DNA from: Verrucomicrobiota bacterium
GTDB lineage: Bacteria; Verrucomicrobiota; Verrucomicrobiia; Limisphaerales; UBA11358
Assembly: GCA_028872915.1 (NCBI GenBank)
Contig: JAGWNY010000010.1
Span: 16,346-80,345 of the forward strand
DNA: 64,000 bases
Reading direction: 5' to 3'
Part shown: piece by piece, positions 55,832 through 64,000 of the stretch
Layout: each line of letters opens with the position of its first letter
Numbering within the stretch: position 1 is the first letter of the stretch
Made by a program: the position numbers and the translations under genes
The notes under the pieces: model-generated
The model's input: the letters and a program-made list of their open reading frames with translations, nothing else
The model's database searches: none
What the model was told of the DNA's origin: nothing

Positions 55832-55990
55832 TATGGGTGGAAGTCCATGAAAAGTTATTTAACTGGATTTATCGCGGAAGTCATTGCAAGGGAACGGGTT
55901 CCAAAAAGTTATCTAACTGATTTGGCCCAAGTTGAATAACTTTTCCGGTGAATCTCGATGCGAATACAGCGCACTTCACCCCCGAGGCGC

Positions 55991-56330
55991 GGAGAGAGAT
56001 TTTAGACAGGATGAACAGGATGAACAGGATGAAGAGCAAAGGCGGAACATTTCAGCCACGGATTTTGGGGAAAGCGGTGTCACGGCCACCGCAGTCCAAG
56101 ACGGCAGGCGGTTGCGCAAACGAATTTCACCACGGAGACACGGAGGGGCGGAGGGAGATTTTAGACAGGATGAACGGGATGGACAGGATGATTTCACCAC
56201 GGAGGGGCGGAGGGACGCGGTGTTGCTGGCGGGGCGCCAGCAACGGCGCCCGGGGGCGGGCGCGGTCCCGGGAGATCGCGGAGACACGGAGGGGCGGAGA
56301 GAGATTTTAGACAGGATGAAAAGGATTATC
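55991..56330. repeat. Degenerate interspersed repeats: GGAGAGAGATTTTAGACAGGATGAACAGGATGA / CACGGAGACACGGAGGGGCGGAG
   Basis: Three partial copies of GAGATTTTAGACAGGATGAA (about 55996, 56155, 56303) and repeated ACGGAGGGGCGGAG blocks. Confidence 0.9.
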
Positions 56331-56361
56331 AGATTGTCAGATTGCGGCAGGCGCGCCGGGT

Positions 56362-58065
56362 TTAATGCGTATCGGATTCGTGGCTAAAAATCATCTCTTC
56401 CGCAAGCAAATCGTAGTCGCCATGGCCAATGACTTTGACCGCCGCAAATTCGCCGATGGCCAATGGCCTTTTCGAGCGGACATAGACCCGCCCGTCAATG
56501 TCCGGGGCATCGGCCTCGCCGCGGGCCACCCAAACGGGGCCCGCGCCGCCCGGCGCGCGAGCCGCCTTGCCGGCGCGCAAAAAGCCGTGCTCCCAGGAGG
56601 CCGCGTTCGCCGCCCATTGTTTTTCATCCAACCGCCCTTCCACCAGAACCTTCAGCGCGCGCCCGACATGGGACTTCGAGACTTGCCGCGCCACTTTTCG
56701 TTGTTCGGCCATGGCCCGCTGGCGCCGCTCGCGCCGGATCGCTTCCGGTATCCGCCCGCTCATCGCGCCCGCGCGCGTTCCTTCTTCCCGCGAATACGCA
56801 AAAACGCCCAGCCGCTCAAATTTCGTTTCGCGGATAAAATCAAGAAGCGATTCAAAACAGGCCTCCGTCTCGCCGGGGAAACCGACGATGAAGGTGGTGC
56901 GCAGCGCGATGCCCGGAATCGCGGCCCGTATTTTTGCAATCAAGTCCACGATATATTGCCGGGACGTCTCGCGGCGCATCCGTTCGAGCATGTTGTCGTG
57001 AACGTGCTGGAGGGGCATGTCCACGTAACGCGCCACTTTTTTGCAGGCCGCGAGAGTGGCGATGAGTTCATCGGTCCAATGGGCGGGATGCGTGTAGAGC
57101 AGGCGTATCCAAAAATCACCTTCCAGGGCGTCCAATTGCCGCAGCAGCGTGCATATCGTTGTTGCTCCGGCGGGCAGCGCGCGGGCGGCGCGGGAAAACT
57201 TTTCCGGGGAGGAAACGGCGCGCGAATGGCCGGGCCGCAAGTCGAGGCCATAGTAGGTGGAGTCCTGGGAAATGAGCACGATTTCCTTCACGCCGCCGCC
57301 AAGGAGCGCCGTGGCCTCGGCAACCAAGTCATCCTGGGCGCGGCTGCGATGAGACCCGCGCATGCGCGGGATGATGCAAAAACTGCATGGATGGTTGCAG
57401 CCCTCGGCAATTTTCAGGTAGGCAAAATGTTTGGGCGTGAGGCGGAAACGGGGCGTGGCGAAATCAGGAATGAAAACGGGCCGCTGCGTCACTTCCAGCA
57501 GCGGTTCTTTCGCCGGCGGGCTATCATTTTGTTCGCCACGCGCTTTTCCCGCCCCCGCTTCCTCCTTGTCCAATTCGCCCAGCCGCCCCACGATGTCGTG
57601 TCGGTGCGGCTTTTGCCGTCCCGGCGCTTTTTCCTTCATCTTCCTGGCCCGCCGCGCCAGGGCGTCGCTGATGATTTCCGGCGCGCGGGCCACCTGGTCC
57701 ACTCCCATGAAGGCATCCACTTCGGGCAGAAGGGCGGGCAATTGGTCGCGAAACCGTTGCGGCAGGCAGCCGGCAACGATCACCGCCTGGCCGCGCCGTT
57801 GGGCGTCCCGCAGCGCGACCGATTCCAAAATGGCATCCACGCTTTCCTCCTGCGCCGGACCGATGAAAGAGCAGGTGTTGACGATGAGCGCGTCGGCCTC
57901 CGAGGGCTTATTAGTAATGACAAGGCCTTTTTCGAGCAATGCGCCGAGCATGATTTCGGCGTCCACCAGGTTTTTGGCGCAGCCCAGCGAAATGAGGCCC
58001 ACGGAAGCCGGGCGACTGCCCTTATTTCCGCCGGAGGGCCGGCGATTGGAACTGTTCTTCAACAC
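56362..58065 (-). CDS. rimO: Ribosomal protein S12 methylthiotransferase
   Basis: VGLISLGCAKNLVDAEIMLGAL; IAEGCNHPCSFCIIPRMRGSHRSR radical SAM motif; C-terminal TRAM-like domain. Confidence 0.95.
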   Translation of the reverse strand: MLKNSSNRRPSGGNKGSRPASVGLISLGCAKNLVDAEIMLGALLEKGLVITNKPSEADALIVNTCSFIGPAQEESVDAILESVALRDAQRRGQAVIVAGCLPQRFRDQLPALLPEVDAFMGVDQVARAPEIISDALARRARKMKEKAPGRQKPHRHDIVGRLGELDKEEAGAGKARGEQNDSPPAKEPLLEVTQRPVFIPDFATPRFRLTPKHFAYLKIAEGCNHPCSFCIIPRMRGSHRSRAQDDLVAEATALLGGGVKEIVLISQDSTYYGLDLRPGHSRAVSSPEKFSRAARALPAGATTICTLLRQLDALEGDFWIRLLYTHPAHWTDELIATLAACKKVARYVDMPLQHVHDNMLERMRRETSRQYIVDLIAKIRAAIPGIALRTTFIVGFPGETEACFESLLDFIRETKFERLGVFAYSREEGTRAGAMSGRIPEAIRRERRQRAMAEQRKVARQVSKSHVGRALKVLVEGRLDEKQWAANAASWEHGFLRAGKAARAPGGAGPVWVARGEADAPDIDGRVYVRSKRPLAIGEFAAVKVIGHGDYDLLAEEMIFSHESDTH

Positions 58066-58339: not shown

Positions 58340-59206
58340 TCAAAACTCCACGTCGCGGCAGCGCTGCTCCAACTGATAGCTGATTTGCTGGATGAGCTTA
58401 TCCGAAAGCTGCGCTGGTTCTTTGGAAATAAAACCAGCCACTTGTTTGCCGCTTAAAACTTTCACATCCGAATTGGCCTTGAGCGTCACATACCAGCCCG
58501 GCAACGCCACGATGGGCTGCGCCGTCACCCGCTCGCCGGTCGCCTTCGTCAGCAGGGCAGCCAGCCGCCGGGCATTTTGGCGGGCCTGCTCCGGCGCGTT
58601 CGCGTCATAGTTGCCGGAAGAGAACTGGATTTTGATGCCGTCAAATTCCGCCTTGTGATCCTCACCGGCTTTGCCCGGCCGTTTCGTGCGATATTTGGTT
58701 TCGATGGCAAACACGCCCGCCGGCCCCACGGCCACGTGGTCAATGTTCCATTTGCGGTCCCCTTTCTCGCAGGGAATGTCGTGAAAGATTTTATAGCCGG
58801 ACGGTATTAAACGCTGCAATTCCTCCGCCATTGCCTGCTCGCCGAGCAGTCCCATCCGATAGGAGCGAATGTTCCATAAAGTCCGCCACGCGAGGATGGT
58901 GCAGATTGCGGCTGCCGACCCGAACATGGTCAAATAAAGGATTCGCGCCGACAGATTGGCTGGCACAACTGACGCGAAAATGATTGCCAACGTCGAGAAA
59001 AGAAATGCTCCCGCGAACCAACCGTTAAAATTGTCGTTCAAATCCTCAAGCTTGCGTTGCAGGCTATAACCAGGTGGACGGAGCAACTTTTCCGAAAGCG
59101 GCTGGCGCTCGCCCCGCCGCTTCCGCCGCCAGCGTTCAAGGGAAACTGCAGCAAGGAGAATCAGCGCGGGAATACATCCGGCAGAAAGTAAAAGCGGTTG
59201 CTGCAT
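58340..59206 (-). CDS. NERD-domain protein with N-terminal TM segments
   Basis: LLGEQAMAEELQRLIPSGYKIFHDIPCEKGDRKWNIDHVAVGPAGVFAIETKYRTKR is a NERD signature; two hydrophobic stretches upstream. Confidence 0.85.
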   Translation of the reverse strand: MQQPLLLSAGCIPALILLAAVSLERWRRKRRGERQPLSEKLLRPPGYSLQRKLEDLNDNFNGWFAGAFLFSTLAIIFASVVPANLSARILYLTMFGSAAAICTILAWRTLWNIRSYRMGLLGEQAMAEELQRLIPSGYKIFHDIPCEKGDRKWNIDHVAVGPAGVFAIETKYRTKRPGKAGEDHKAEFDGIKIQFSSGNYDANAPEQARQNARRLAALLTKATGERVTAQPIVALPGWYVTLKANSDVKVLSGKQVAGFISKEPAQLSDKLIQQISYQLEQRCRDVEF

Positions 59207-59300: not shown

Positions 59301-59561
59301 TTACGGCGAGTTTACATTTGTCCCGGCTTGTTTCACTGGTGGAATAACCAGTGCCGGCGGGACTTGTTGTTGCGCACGCAAATTCTGAACGGTGACATCA
59401 ACTTCTGCTTTAAGAGCCTTATCTTCAGCGACAAGTGATTCTAAATTTGTGACAGCTCCAGAAACCTGACTTGCCAAGACGTCTACCTTGCCCTGTGCGA
59501 CCTCTGCTTTGCCTTGTGTTTCACTAGCTTTATTCCATGTTTCATACCCCCGAAATACGAG
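59301..59561 (-). other. In-frame 86-codon extension downstream of the TGA of the GMPK-DCD gene (not in ORF track)
   Basis: Manual translation after TGA at 59562-59564: LVFRGYETWNKASETQGKAEVAQGKVDVLASQVSGAVTNLESLVAEDKALKAEVDVTVQNLRAQQQVPPALVIPPVKQAGTNVNSP*; same frame, ends TAA at 59301-59303. Confidence 0.8.
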
Positions 59562-60686
59562 TCAAATAACCGCGACAATTACAGCTAGCCCCGGCACGAC
59601 TAACGTCAACCACAAACCATTCAGCGTATTTTCAACACGCGATAGGCGGTCCACAATAGTCCCGCCTGGGCCAACAACTGCGACTCCTGGCATATAATCT
59701 GCCAGGGTTTTATGGCCCTGATGATGTTCATGATACTTTTCCGTTACTTTCGTTGTTACCAGGAATTCCATTGTTGCGAAATGTTCACCAAGCTTGAGAC
59801 CTATATTGGAATCACTGCCGTTGAAAAGCATACAAAGTAGAATTTTGTCAAATCCAGGATCAACTTGAGGGCCGTTCGATAGGATCACGCCTTGAATGAA
59901 GAGCGAGACTTTAATGTCGTAATGTGCAACTACGAAATTAGGAAGGCAGGCCTTTTCATGCGCTTCCACAAGGACATAAGAATAAGGTGGTATTGTAATA
60001 GGTTCGTGTGCTGTTAATTTATACAGCTTGCCTTTACACCACACCGTTCCGCCCACAGTAAGATCGTAGCTCGCTGGTTGAATATTGTCCGTCAATGCGT
60101 CTTTGAGCAGGGTGCCAGCCCTGATGAGATTCGTGATAGACTGCTTATCCAAAATCCCCCTAGACTTAAGTATTATAAATATTGATGAAAGCGCGTTCTT
60201 TGTTACCTCAAAGTCTCCATGCAGAACCACGTCGCAGCTCTGCGCTACAAGTCGTTGGGCGTTAAACGCGGCTTGGCCTTCGTCACGCAATTTATCGCCT
60301 TGAATTCGTTGTATTTGCTCTTCGTAGCTATTTATGTTGTCAAGACCAACGGTAATAAATTCCAATGGACTCGTTGCCCTGTAATCGTGGAGCACTTTCA
60401 GATTCCCTGGGTGGAATACAGTGAAACCTATCTCGCCAGACTTTATGGATTCAAGCTCCGATTTCCTTAGGCCATAGAAATGCTCCGCGACTTCAATCGT
60501 CCATGCAAAATCGTTTTTGTTCCAGTGCTTTTTCTCTTGGTGGTGGTATTGCCCATCATCATCGGGCCGTTGCCCCCTTGTTGTGGAGGGCTGTAATACG
60601 TGAACGAGCGGGAAAGATTTGGCGGTGGCAATCAATGTTGATTTGCCACAGCCCCTCACGCCTACTAGCACGACAATTGTCTTCAT
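59562..60686 (-). CDS. Fusion: guanylate-kinase-like P-loop domain + dCTP deaminase/dUTPase-fold (DCD-like) domain + C-terminal TM helix
   Basis: GVRGCGKST Walker A and PSTTRGQRPDDDGQYHH (GMP-binding-loop-like); DNIQPASYDLTVGG, GPQVDPGFDKILLCMLFNGS, LGEHFATMEF (Dcd-like); LWLTLVVPGLAVIVAVI. Confidence 0.75.
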   Translation of the reverse strand: MKTIVVLVGVRGCGKSTLIATAKSFPLVHVLQPSTTRGQRPDDDGQYHHQEKKHWNKNDFAWTIEVAEHFYGLRKSELESIKSGEIGFTVFHPGNLKVLHDYRATSPLEFITVGLDNINSYEEQIQRIQGDKLRDEGQAAFNAQRLVAQSCDVVLHGDFEVTKNALSSIFIILKSRGILDKQSITNLIRAGTLLKDALTDNIQPASYDLTVGGTVWCKGKLYKLTAHEPITIPPYSYVLVEAHEKACLPNFVVAHYDIKVSLFIQGVILSNGPQVDPGFDKILLCMLFNGSDSNIGLKLGEHFATMEFLVTTKVTEKYHEHHQGHKTLADYMPGVAVVGPGGTIVDRLSRVENTLNGLWLTLVVPGLAVIVAVI

Positions 60687-60690
60687 AGCG

Positions 60691-61959
60691 TCATTTTTCG
60701 TGTTGATAGATTTCTATTGTCTCCCGCTTGATAGATGTCCAGCATTGACGTGTGCGCCCCTGGCGAATTGATCTGTCCTTCTTAAAAATGTTCACCCAAC
60801 CCAAGGTGTTTAAGGTTTCTCCCATGTGGATTGCCCCGGCTTCCCGACCATGGTCTTCATGCGGCAATACTATGGACACGCTACCGTCATCCGCCAGAAA
60901 GCTAACCTGTTTTTCCAGAGCCGACGCGAGTTCGGCGGCCCAGATTGACTCGGATAATGAATTAGACCGCTTTCTCCTCGCACCTATTTCACTGTGACCC
61001 ATTGTTGTTATCGCCTTTTCGTTAAATCCAAAGAGGTAGAGCGAAAGCCGTTGGGCGCGTGTGTAATCTATCGCGTTCGCATAGGGAGGGGATGTAATCA
61101 AGGCATTGATTTTTGACTTGGGACCAACTTTAAGCGCCGAGTCCGAACGCCAATCGTGACATGAAGCCCAAAACTGAACTGCTCGCCTATGTTTCGCCGA
61201 CAACGGACAAACCTGCGACCGGTTTAACATACCACCAACCCGGCTCAACCACCGTCGGCACAATTCGCCCACGTTCTTAATGGTAAATTCATCGGGGAGG
61301 ACGTTGTCGGCTACATGACCCCAACTCCGATTCTGGGAACTCGCAATTCTCAACGTCGCAGAAAGCATCACCAACCCGAATAGTTTACCAAGTGACGACA
61401 ATTCCGAGTTTAGAATCTTTCCGAACAGTTTTTTTATTTCCTGCAAAGTATTCGGCTCATACCAAGGCGCAAGCAAACTCCATTTGGAGGGCAACGTGGC
61501 GCGCATTTCAGCAAAAACTTCTTGCGGCGCAGGCCTCATCAGATGATCCATAACGGAATCAATCGCAGATTCGTTCGCGAAGCTAAACAAGTCATTTTCG
61601 AATGTTTTGCCGCCAAATATACGCTCAACAGCGGCAATTGTGGAAATATACATGGTTGGATCTACGGCCTTGGATAGGATCAATCCTGACGTGACATAGG
61701 CAGTGAGATAACCTATCGGACACTGGTCCACATGCCATGCTTTCCGGCCCAGACGAAGGGCCTCGACTACGGTTGTCCCAATTCCTCCATACGGGTCAAA
61801 AACCAACTCGCCTTCTCGAGTCAAAGCTTCAATCAGCGTCCCTGGCAGTTGAGGAGGGAATGTTCCTGGATACCAATGGAAAGCGCCGGTCGCCTCCGAG
61901 TTAATCCGGGGAAAATCCCAATCAACCGCTTCAAGCTGTCTTAAAAGGTTCGGGGTCAT
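60691..61959 (-). CDS. DNA N4-cytosine/N6-adenine methyltransferase-like protein
   Basis: GELVFDPYGGIGTTVVEALRLGRKAWHVDQCPIGY (motif I) and INALITSPPYANAIDYTRAQRLSLYLFGF (motif IV SPPY), order I then IV. Confidence 0.82.
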   Translation of the reverse strand: MTPNLLRQLEAVDWDFPRINSEATGAFHWYPGTFPPQLPGTLIEALTREGELVFDPYGGIGTTVVEALRLGRKAWHVDQCPIGYLTAYVTSGLILSKAVDPTMYISTIAAVERIFGGKTFENDLFSFANESAIDSVMDHLMRPAPQEVFAEMRATLPSKWSLLAPWYEPNTLQEIKKLFGKILNSELSSLGKLFGLVMLSATLRIASSQNRSWGHVADNVLPDEFTIKNVGELCRRWLSRVGGMLNRSQVCPLSAKHRRAVQFWASCHDWRSDSALKVGPKSKINALITSPPYANAIDYTRAQRLSLYLFGFNEKAITTMGHSEIGARRKRSNSLSESIWAAELASALEKQVSFLADDGSVSIVLPHEDHGREAGAIHMGETLNTLGWVNIFKKDRSIRQGRTRQCWTSIKRETIEIYQHEK

Positions 61960-63266
61960 GACAAAAGTGCCAATTGATCATTTTCTGCTCGGGGCAGGAT
62001 CAGTGGGTCGGATACCATCTTAATATCCTTACATCCGTTCTCAGATAGTATACGAATTGATTCATTTTTGAGGATGAGGCTCTCTTTTGATTTTACTGGT
62101 TTTGAAGCAAAGACCCCAATCAATAAACATCGGCTGTCGAATCCGATTACCTCCTGCTTCTGCGTCTCTTTGCACGTTATTTTTACAGAACGGTCAGTTT
62201 TTTTAACATCCAAGATGAAGTGAACCAAAATCTGCGGGCCTGGCCGGTCCTTATAGACGGCTTTACGAATTTGCTTTTCGATTTCTCGTTTTGTTGCAAT
62301 CAGGTTCAGGAACTTATACGATTCAACTGAGGGACTTCTGGCAATCATTATTGGGGTGTATAATTGTCCAAGCCGGAGCCGGCTTGTGATAATCTTGATA
62401 GACTGGGAATCGCCAATTTGGCCCAGAAACATCTGAATCAACTCTTCATCAGTTAAACGCCAATTATCAATACCAACACGTTTTTGCATGGCTGCATCTT
62501 CAAAGGCCCGCGTCAACATCGCTTTTCCCGAAAACTCCCCCCAATCCAGAAGCAAAAATTCATACAGACGTTTCCGAATCTCCTGCCATCGAGTTACTAA
62601 TGGTATGTTCTTTACGGAAATCTGGATTCCGGTTTTTGAAAGTGAGATAGACCTGGCCAATTGAATTGGCAATGTCTTGTCTTCCTGGTTACAGATGCCA
62701 ACATGAAATGCCAGCCGGACCACATTATCAATATTGTCCAAATCAATATCACCGGAAACGAGTTTTCCAAGCGGGCCACGGCCATTGATCATTTCAGACA
62801 CGTGTTTCCATCGCTTGTCACAGAGCTTTTCGACTAGAAATGGAGCGCCCAAATAGGAGGCGTTCGCACTGAGGTCTTGGTGATACATCTTCTCCCTGGC
62901 ACCAGACAGGTCTTCATGTTTGAAGTCGCCACCAATTTTATTGTCTTCGAGAATATACTGGATCGAATGGCCAAACGGGCCGGACTGCGTATCATGAACC
63001 AACGCGGCAATACGGAGATTGTCGGCCTGCCCAAACGCAACCTTGTTTTTTGCCGCGAGCCATTCATTTGCCAGCCTAAGCGTGCCAAGTGCGTGTTCAA
63101 AGCGCGAGACTTGAGCCGCACCCGGAATCAACAATGAATCGATGTTGCACAGCCTGATATGCCGCAATCGCTGAACCTCCGGACAAAATACGAAACTGCT
63201 CTCCAGCGGAGAGAGTTCCATGAGCCCATACATTGGATCCCATATTCTGTTCAATTCATTTTCCAT
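61956..63266 (-). CDS. HD-domain phosphohydrolase, SAMHD1/dNTPase-like
   Basis: FCPEVQRLRHIRLCNIDSLLIPGAAQVSRFEHALGTLRLA; AALVHDTQSGPFGHSIQYIL; DIDLDNIDNVVRLAF: H…HD…D retained; ATGA overlap with the methylase. Confidence 0.8.
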   Translation of the reverse strand: MENELNRIWDPMYGLMELSPLESSFVFCPEVQRLRHIRLCNIDSLLIPGAAQVSRFEHALGTLRLANEWLAAKNKVAFGQADNLRIAALVHDTQSGPFGHSIQYILEDNKIGGDFKHEDLSGAREKMYHQDLSANASYLGAPFLVEKLCDKRWKHVSEMINGRGPLGKLVSGDIDLDNIDNVVRLAFHVGICNQEDKTLPIQLARSISLSKTGIQISVKNIPLVTRWQEIRKRLYEFLLLDWGEFSGKAMLTRAFEDAAMQKRVGIDNWRLTDEELIQMFLGQIGDSQSIKIITSRLRLGQLYTPIMIARSPSVESYKFLNLIATKREIEKQIRKAVYKDRPGPQILVHFILDVKKTDRSVKITCKETQKQEVIGFDSRCLLIGVFASKPVKSKESLILKNESIRILSENGCKDIKMVSDPLILPRAENDQLALLS

Positions 63267-63311: not shown

Positions 63312-63998
63312 TTAACGTTTGTTGATTTCCAAAAATCTTGCGGCCTGGTTGGCCGCATAATAGCCACTGACCAGCGACGCGGTTAATCCGCGAAAAACAC
63401 CAGTTGAATCACCGGCGATCCAAAGCGGATACGGCAACACCTTAAGATTGTTGTCAATTTTTGGATAGAAGGCAACCGCCTCAACCGTTGGGGCAACCAG
63501 AGTGGCCGACTGGCTGTTTATCGACAACGATTGTTGAAACTGCGAAAGCCCATGGGCCATGTGGTCCGCAATGTCCGGGCCAAAAAATTTGGCAATGGCA
63601 CTGGTTGGTCGAGCTCTGGAATTCCCCGTATCAATAAATGATTCCCAATACTCCTTAATTGGAAACTTGTGCGAATCCGACTGCAACGATTTAAAAATAT
63701 TTTTCCAAACGACTGTGCCATAAGCTTCATTTTCAATGCGCAAATTTAATCCAACATTAGAAAAACCCGAGATCTCGCAGTCACCCCTGCCAGAGACCGT
63801 TCTAATATCCCCGGTCGGAATGGTCACTACTTCACCGTTACGACAACAGCAAAAAGTCCGATATTCCAAATCATTTTTGCCCTTAAGGATGAGTTTGGGA
63901 TCCGTTTGGAACTTGGAATTAAGAAAGAGATCCGAGGTGGATTGCTGAATCCTCACCCCGATCTCAAGCCGAAGAAACCGCTTCGGCGTTTCTGGCAA
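63312..63998 (-). CDS. FAD-dependent dehydrogenase-like protein, C-terminal part (continues past window edge)
   Basis: C-terminal LWIAGDSTGVFRGLTASLVSGYYAANQAARFL flavin-binding GD…G motif; open to window end. Confidence 0.7.
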   Translation of the reverse strand: MPETPKRFLRLEIGVRIQQSTSDLFLNSKFQTDPKLILKGKNDLEYRTFCCCRNGEVVTIPTGDIRTVSGRGDCEISGFSNVGLNLRIENEAYGTVVWKNIFKSLQSDSHKFPIKEYWESFIDTGNSRARPTSAIAKFFGPDIADHMAHGLSQFQQSLSINSQSATLVAPTVEAVAFYPKIDNNLKVLPYPLWIAGDSTGVFRGLTASLVSGYYAANQAARFLEINKR

Positions 63999-64000
63999 AA

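Follow-up and report, generated by a model that had tools for sequence, protein, structure and literature searches.

A guanylate kinase-like domain joined to a DCD-fold domain and a membrane helix: a candidate nucleotide sensor in a rare mobile gene cassette

The window, by which we mean the whole stretch of 64,000 nucleotides of Verrucomicrobiota DNA that was analysed, carries on its minus strand an open reading frame of 374 amino acids (59562..60686) whose product joins a guanylate kinase (GK)-like domain to a DCD-fold domain and a single transmembrane (TM) helix at the C-terminus. This architecture is real and unusual, and it lies within a rare mobile cassette, in which the gene order is FAD oxidoreductase, SAMHD1-like HD phosphohydrolase, DNA methyltransferase and, as the last gene, GK-DCD-TM. 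We propose, with a probability of about 0.42, that the GK-DCD-TM protein is a membrane-anchored nucleotide sensor or regulator of a four-gene mobile anti-phage cassette. The defence function of the cassette is what we infer from its anatomy and its context, and it constitutes the main uncertainty of the proposal. The protein and the DNA immediately beyond it comprise the following features:

60162..60686, minus strand: GK-like P-loop domain, aa 1-175 (profiles and motifs; fold of the corresponding domain of the L009 homologue)
within 60162..60686, minus strand: GK-like domain motifs GVRGCGKST, PSTTRGQRP, Y47 and Y71-G72
59685..60161, minus strand: DCD/dUTPase-fold domain, aa 176-334, without the Dcd catalytic residues (profile and alignment)
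59565..59627, minus strand: C-terminal transmembrane helix, aa 354-374 (hydropathy; a helix in the same place in the L009 homologue, 2.73)
59562..59564, minus strand: in-frame TGA within the TM segment, an early stop by comparison with the L009 homologue
59304..59561, minus strand: 86 more open codons in the same frame, covering the remaining TM region and a charged tail

An initial annotation had assigned the three parts of the protein from the sequence, and profile searches bear it out. The N-terminal half matches the PHROG guanylate kinase profile (E=2e-11, aa 1-152) and NCBIfam guanyl_kin (E=8e-5, aa 3-82), while the C-terminal half matches PF22769 (E=6e-10; 39.9 bits, above the cut-off of 27), TIGR02274 (E=3.6e-15) and the PDB dCTP deaminase 9ln0 (E=2.5e-18); these E-values exclude chance. 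The hydropathy maximum of 2.17 over aa 356-374 corresponds to the proposed membrane anchor. An AlphaFold2 model of the whole fusion, built from two sequences, reached a pLDDT of 36.7 and was left out; the GK domain of the homologue from a Desulfobacteraceae MAG contig (L009) was modelled alone instead (pLDDT 69, pTM 0.70; one of five models good). The best-ranked PDB matches of this model in Foldseek are guanylate kinases (best E=2.8e-8, TM-score about 0.5-0.68); the matches include the GK-like domains of CASK and MPP1, and the named top viral matches include guanylate kinases or GMPK proteins.

The architecture had also been called unusual. As regards the fusion itself this stands, but it is not unique, given the full-length L009 homologue (53% identical) and a wider group of TM-anchored DCD-like proteins. 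No paper describing the GK-DCD fusion was found, and a 2015 paper on nucleotide-centric systems may already mention related domains. Used alone as a query, the window protein returned no relatives from the genome-contig or viral-contig collections.

The GK half resembles the Gmk family in its fold and in keeping the P-loop and the TTRxxR, Tyr and YG motifs of the GMP site, and it is plausible from these motifs that it binds a nucleotide. Unlike Gmk, however, it lacks the Asp of the E. coli VFLDID strand, where the window protein reads VFHPGN and the Rhizobium etli protein VFEPIS; it scores far below the cut-off of the Gmk equivalog TIGR03263 (22.3 against 160.45 bits); and it is fused to the DCD domain and the TM helix.

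The DCD half, for its part, shares the VDPG[FY] strand with the Dcd/PF22769 family and keeps the Asp of VDPG. It departs from that family in its membrane anchor and in three residues, S111, R115 and E138 of E. coli Dcd, which are V, I and M in the alignment; the L009 homologue has Met in the E138 position as well. Against the TIGR02274 equivalog it reaches 56.1 of 92.8 bits, which is below the cut-off. The loss of the Dcd catalytic residues suggests that the DCD half is probably a binding module rather than a deaminase. Of the two nucleotide-binding sites envisaged in the initial annotation, the one in the GK half is thus plausible, whereas the one in the DCD half is doubtful, its catalytic and phosphate-binding residues being substituted. 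Three PDB entries labelled dCTP deaminase (9ln0, 9ln3 and 8y1w) also carry Met at the E138 position, and 9ln0 and 8y1w retain the RSSxxR stretch in spite of it; no literature on 9ln0 or 8y1w was found.

Stand-alone DCD-like proteins of Acuticoccus, R. ruizarguesonis and others likewise terminate in a TM-like helix. Among 54 aligned proteins (15 TM-tailed, 36 soluble Dcd-type, and three dUTPases or dUTPase-like), the Glu corresponding to E138 is absent from every one of the 15 with a hydrophobic tail, where it is S, A, G or M, and is kept in all 36 soluble proteins; these counts ignore relatedness among the proteins, and the TM calls come from a simple hydropathy scan in which two are weak (1.45 and 1.64). 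The coincidence of a C-terminal TM helix with loss of the Dcd Glu (15/15 versus 0/36) is a simple test for a whole protein set, and the proteins that it flags, some of them labelled only 'deoxycytidine triphosphate deaminase', are probably not deaminases. Plasmid-borne proteins with a TM-like C-terminal helix and without the catalytic Glu were observed at L005, L006 and L039-L044; several are annotated with that same name, probably misleadingly. The source genome of the window contains a second TM-anchored DCD-like protein, of 229 aa (L002, G000:C104:3329-3739), which has Gly at the E138 position and is adjoined by a transposase. There is no support for the TM-DCD group being viral in origin, one viral contig having been found.

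Genes for TM-DCD proteins occur on alphaproteobacterial plasmids and in Verrucomicrobiota genomes. Their neighbours include ImmA/IrrE and C1 peptidases, uracil-DNA glycosylase (UDG), a MazG_C-containing pyrophosphohydrolase, thymidylate synthase homologues and a 5-hmdU DNA kinase. At two loci (L091 in G180 and L092 in G019) a TMPK-like or dNK-like kinase gene immediately adjoins the TM-DCD gene, and these pairs are a split counterpart of the window fusion. Both islands also carry a thymidylate synthase homologue and a 5-hmdU DNA kinase, and L091 has an ImmA/IrrE-like peptidase gene. The TM-DCD islands share with the window a Glu-less DCD-like domain with a C-terminal TM helix and, at L091 and L092, a nucleotide kinase next door; they differ in that their kinases are of the dNK/TMPK type and encoded by separate genes, and in having no HD-methyltransferase pair. 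In a further arrangement (L087:1022-4823, G310), adjacent genes encode an AAA ATPase, a GmrSD_N protein and two Dcd-like proteins, one soluble and keeping the Glu, the other TM-tailed and lacking it; the gene set is possibly a restriction-type operon.

The partner genes of the fusion in the window are the following:

60691..61959, minus strand: DNA methyltransferase (PF01555, E=1.3e-13; alignment with the two other cassettes)
61956..63266, minus strand: HD phosphohydrolase, SAMHD1/dNTPase-like (profile and alignment), overlapping the methyltransferase start
63312..64000, minus strand: C-terminal portion of a gene product that resembles FAD-dependent oxidoreductases and is homologous to that of R. 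etli; the contig end, which is the window end, cuts the gene

In the methyltransferase, motif I (FDPYGGIGTT) precedes motif IV (TSPPY), an order that suggests N4-cytosine specificity; the enzyme is a predicted amino-methyltransferase that probably acts on N4 of cytosine, and its matches to type II systems in PADLOC are generic only. The HD profile matches SAMHD1 with E-values of 1e-10 to 1e-13; for SAMHD1 and bacterial phosphohydrolases taken together the range is 1e-10 to 1e-17. Its residues H58, H91-D92 and D177/D180 are conserved in all three known cassettes, while the second His of the SAMHD1-type HDxxH motif, which is H in 2q14, is S or T in all three. The full-length L009 copy of the FAD protein carries an FAD/NAD Rossmann motif. 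The cassette has a GC content of 0.47, against 0.594 (sd 0.016) in the remaining window. Just downstream of it, at 58340-59206, lies a gene for a NERD nuclease-domain protein weakly similar to the MADS protein MAD6, and at 55932-56390 overlapping ORFs with a recurring EGRREILDRM-like motif suggest short DNA repeats.

The cassette was found in three unrelated bacteria, namely that of the window, Rhizobium etli CIAT 652 (plasmid pA, L004) and the Desulfobacteraceae MAG, with the FAD-HD-MTase-GK order kept and the genes overlapping or abutting in each. The R. etli operon was recovered by tblastn of plasmids and the Desulfobacteraceae cassette through the methyltransferase alignment; in these two cassettes the HD proteins are 42-57% and the methyltransferases 37-48% identical to those of the window. 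No additional cassette was returned by a GK profile across about 390 Verrucomicrobiota genomes, by a methyltransferase profile across 320 genomes of the order, or by a GK-DCD profile across 335 genomes of the class. An exact-pattern scan of 85,462 species genomes, which is of low sensitivity, gave one cassette, and the independent loci known overall remain three.

The L009 cassette stands directly behind a type I restriction operon, hsdR-hsdS-hsdM, with start and stop overlapping, and is bordered by tail genes at one end and by a RusA resolvase at the other; the contig is also listed as viral in IMG/VR (L032), and the 1.6-kb stretch compared is identical. Both the L009 and the R. etli cassettes are AT-rich relative to their own flanks. 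In R. etli the GK domain stands alone, with no DCD domain or TM helix, and these parts are thus not essential there. The R. etli GK-like gene (L004:5998-6522) has no annotation in the record. The FAD-like ORF of that cassette (L004:2530-3465) is shorter than its L009 counterpart and without the N-terminal FAD motif, and may be truncated or frame-shifted; upstream of the cassette, L004:426-2261 encodes a PNP_UDP phosphorylase-domain protein similar to a PADLOC 'Effector'.

In the sensor model that we favour, the GK-like domain would bind a (deoxy)nucleoside monophosphate, or a modified nucleotide, whose level shifts on infection. As the Dcd/dUTPase fold is trimeric, the DCD-like domain would by analogy bring the protein together at the inner membrane, and it may itself sense a dNTP. 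The protein would then control its partner HD enzyme, which would hydrolyse dNTPs and starve the phage, and the methyltransferase would mark or inspect DNA; the model leaves the FAD protein unaccounted for. The observations behind it are the architecture, the cassette at three loci, the lost Dcd residues, the association with type I restriction and phage genes, the foreign base composition, the SAMHD1 match of the HD partner and the GK-like fold. Against it stand the dispensability of the DCD domain and TM helix in R. etli, the missing HDxxH His and Gmk Asp, the truncation of the window copy, the lack of any PADLOC model for the HD, FAD and GK-DCD proteins, the neglect of relatedness in the TM-DCD counts, and the number of loci, which is only three. 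Were the model true, bacteria would possess a further route to sense nucleotide changes in infection, with metabolic enzyme folds reused as a membrane receptor. A broader version is speculative and, in our judgement, rather unlikely: that the cassette constitutes an anti-phage system not described before, whose membrane receptor of GK and dead DCD folds monitors the nucleotide pool and turns a SAMHD1-like dNTPase on or off, and that TM-anchored, Glu-less DCDs are general bacterial nucleotide receptors paired with nucleotide kinases.

The truncation of the window copy bears on whether the gene functions at all. The L009 homologue, of 436 aa, continues there, finishing the TM helix and adding a charged tail, and a two-sequence HMM of the window and L009 proteins aligns across the TGA. 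The chance of the frame staying open for 86 codons past the TGA is 0.6%, and the similarity of the tails is modest, being equalled in 104 of 5000 shuffles. The TGA is accordingly read as a premature stop, either real or an assembly error; its use as a sense codon is ruled out because neighbouring window genes terminate normally in TGA. The window gene might then be a decaying remnant, a pseudogene of a defunct cassette, which would be compatible with any reading of the intact family. With a stop in frame inside the TM helix, and with the upstream half of the cassette unseen because it lies at the contig end, this deserves consideration, yet we regard it as somewhat doubtful: both complete partner genes retain open frames, the TGA could come from a single assembly error, and neither the GK nor the DCD half is damaged, with 55% identity to L009 over aa 1-354. 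Alternatively, the TM segment could be the effector itself, ligand binding by the GK and DCD domains causing it to open or disrupt the inner membrane and kill the infected cell, under regulation by the HD enzyme and the methyltransferase. Abortive-infection proteins commonly pair a sensor domain with a terminal TM helix, and since the DCD fold is normally trimeric, three helices would be bundled. However, the R. etli cassette dispenses with both TM and DCD, part of the TM region is lost from the window copy, and a single helix may merely anchor the protein, which together make a membrane-disrupting role distinctly unlikely.

There are two further explanations. The fusion might be a bifunctional membrane enzyme, with an active NMP kinase and a dCTP deaminase or dUTPase altering the dNTP pool directly; both folds are those of enzymes, the VDPG Asp is retained, and the deaminase-labelled 9ln0 and 8y1w share the Met. 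We nevertheless consider this very unlikely, as all three of E138, S111 and R115 are replaced in the window protein, whereas 9ln0 keeps its RSSxxR, and the profile scores fall under the equivalog cut-offs. The cassette as a whole could instead be a DNA or nucleotide modification pathway, in which GK would add a phosphate to a modified dNMP, the canonical dNTP that competes would be cleared by the HD enzyme, the modification would be made or installed by the FAD enzyme and the methyltransferase, and DCD-TM would tether the complex. The company kept by TM-DCD genes elsewhere (thymidylate synthase homologues, 5-hmdU DNA kinase, MazG_C-containing pyrophosphohydrolase, dNK/TMPK kinases and UDG) speaks for such a pathway, and the pairing of an HD dNTPase with a kinase is reminiscent of base-replacing phages. 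Yet those accompanying genes are all absent from the window cassette, its methyltransferase is like ordinary DNA amino-methyltransferases, and the presence of type I restriction next door suggests defence, so that a modification pathway is also unlikely. On the best reading of the sequences, the cassette would be a new form of nucleotide-centred defence, with the GK-DCD-TM protein as its putative sensor.

Several known systems bear comparison with this sensor model. PADLOC models gave no match for the HD, FAD or GK-DCD proteins, only P-loop or generic methyltransferase matches. The anti-phage deaminases DcdV/AvcD are similar in outline, joining an N-terminal P-loop kinase-like part to a C-terminal deoxycytidine deaminase. 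Their deaminase is of the zinc cytidine-deaminase fold and active, whereas the window protein has a Dcd-type fold without the catalytic Glu, and a TM helix in addition; no Pfam match to a zinc-dependent cytidine deaminase domain of the DcdV/AvcD kind occurs among the cassette genes seen. AvcD is a deoxycytidylate deaminase (PMC10511110). A role in defence has been validated for thymidylate synthase and 5-hydroxymethyluracil (5-hmU) kinase domains and predicted for a dUTPase (PMC13092281); no mention of TM-DCD was found in that paper. The nearest precedent for a kinase-fold sensor, by description rather than by sequence comparison, is DndF, the nucleotide kinase of DndFGH, which has been proposed to recognise phage nucleotides (PMC10853773, PMC12839542); it too is a derived nucleotide kinase domain in defence, albeit with another architecture and other partners than the window protein. 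The nearest functional precedent is Clover, in which a dNTPase (CloA, with CloB) is controlled by nucleotide signals (PMC12265719). In both, an HD-family dNTPase is proposed to answer to a nucleotide-responsive partner; that partner is a nucleotidyltransferase in Clover, and no CloB-like one is present among the cassette genes seen, whereas here it would be the GK-DCD-TM protein, accompanied by a methyltransferase and an FAD protein.
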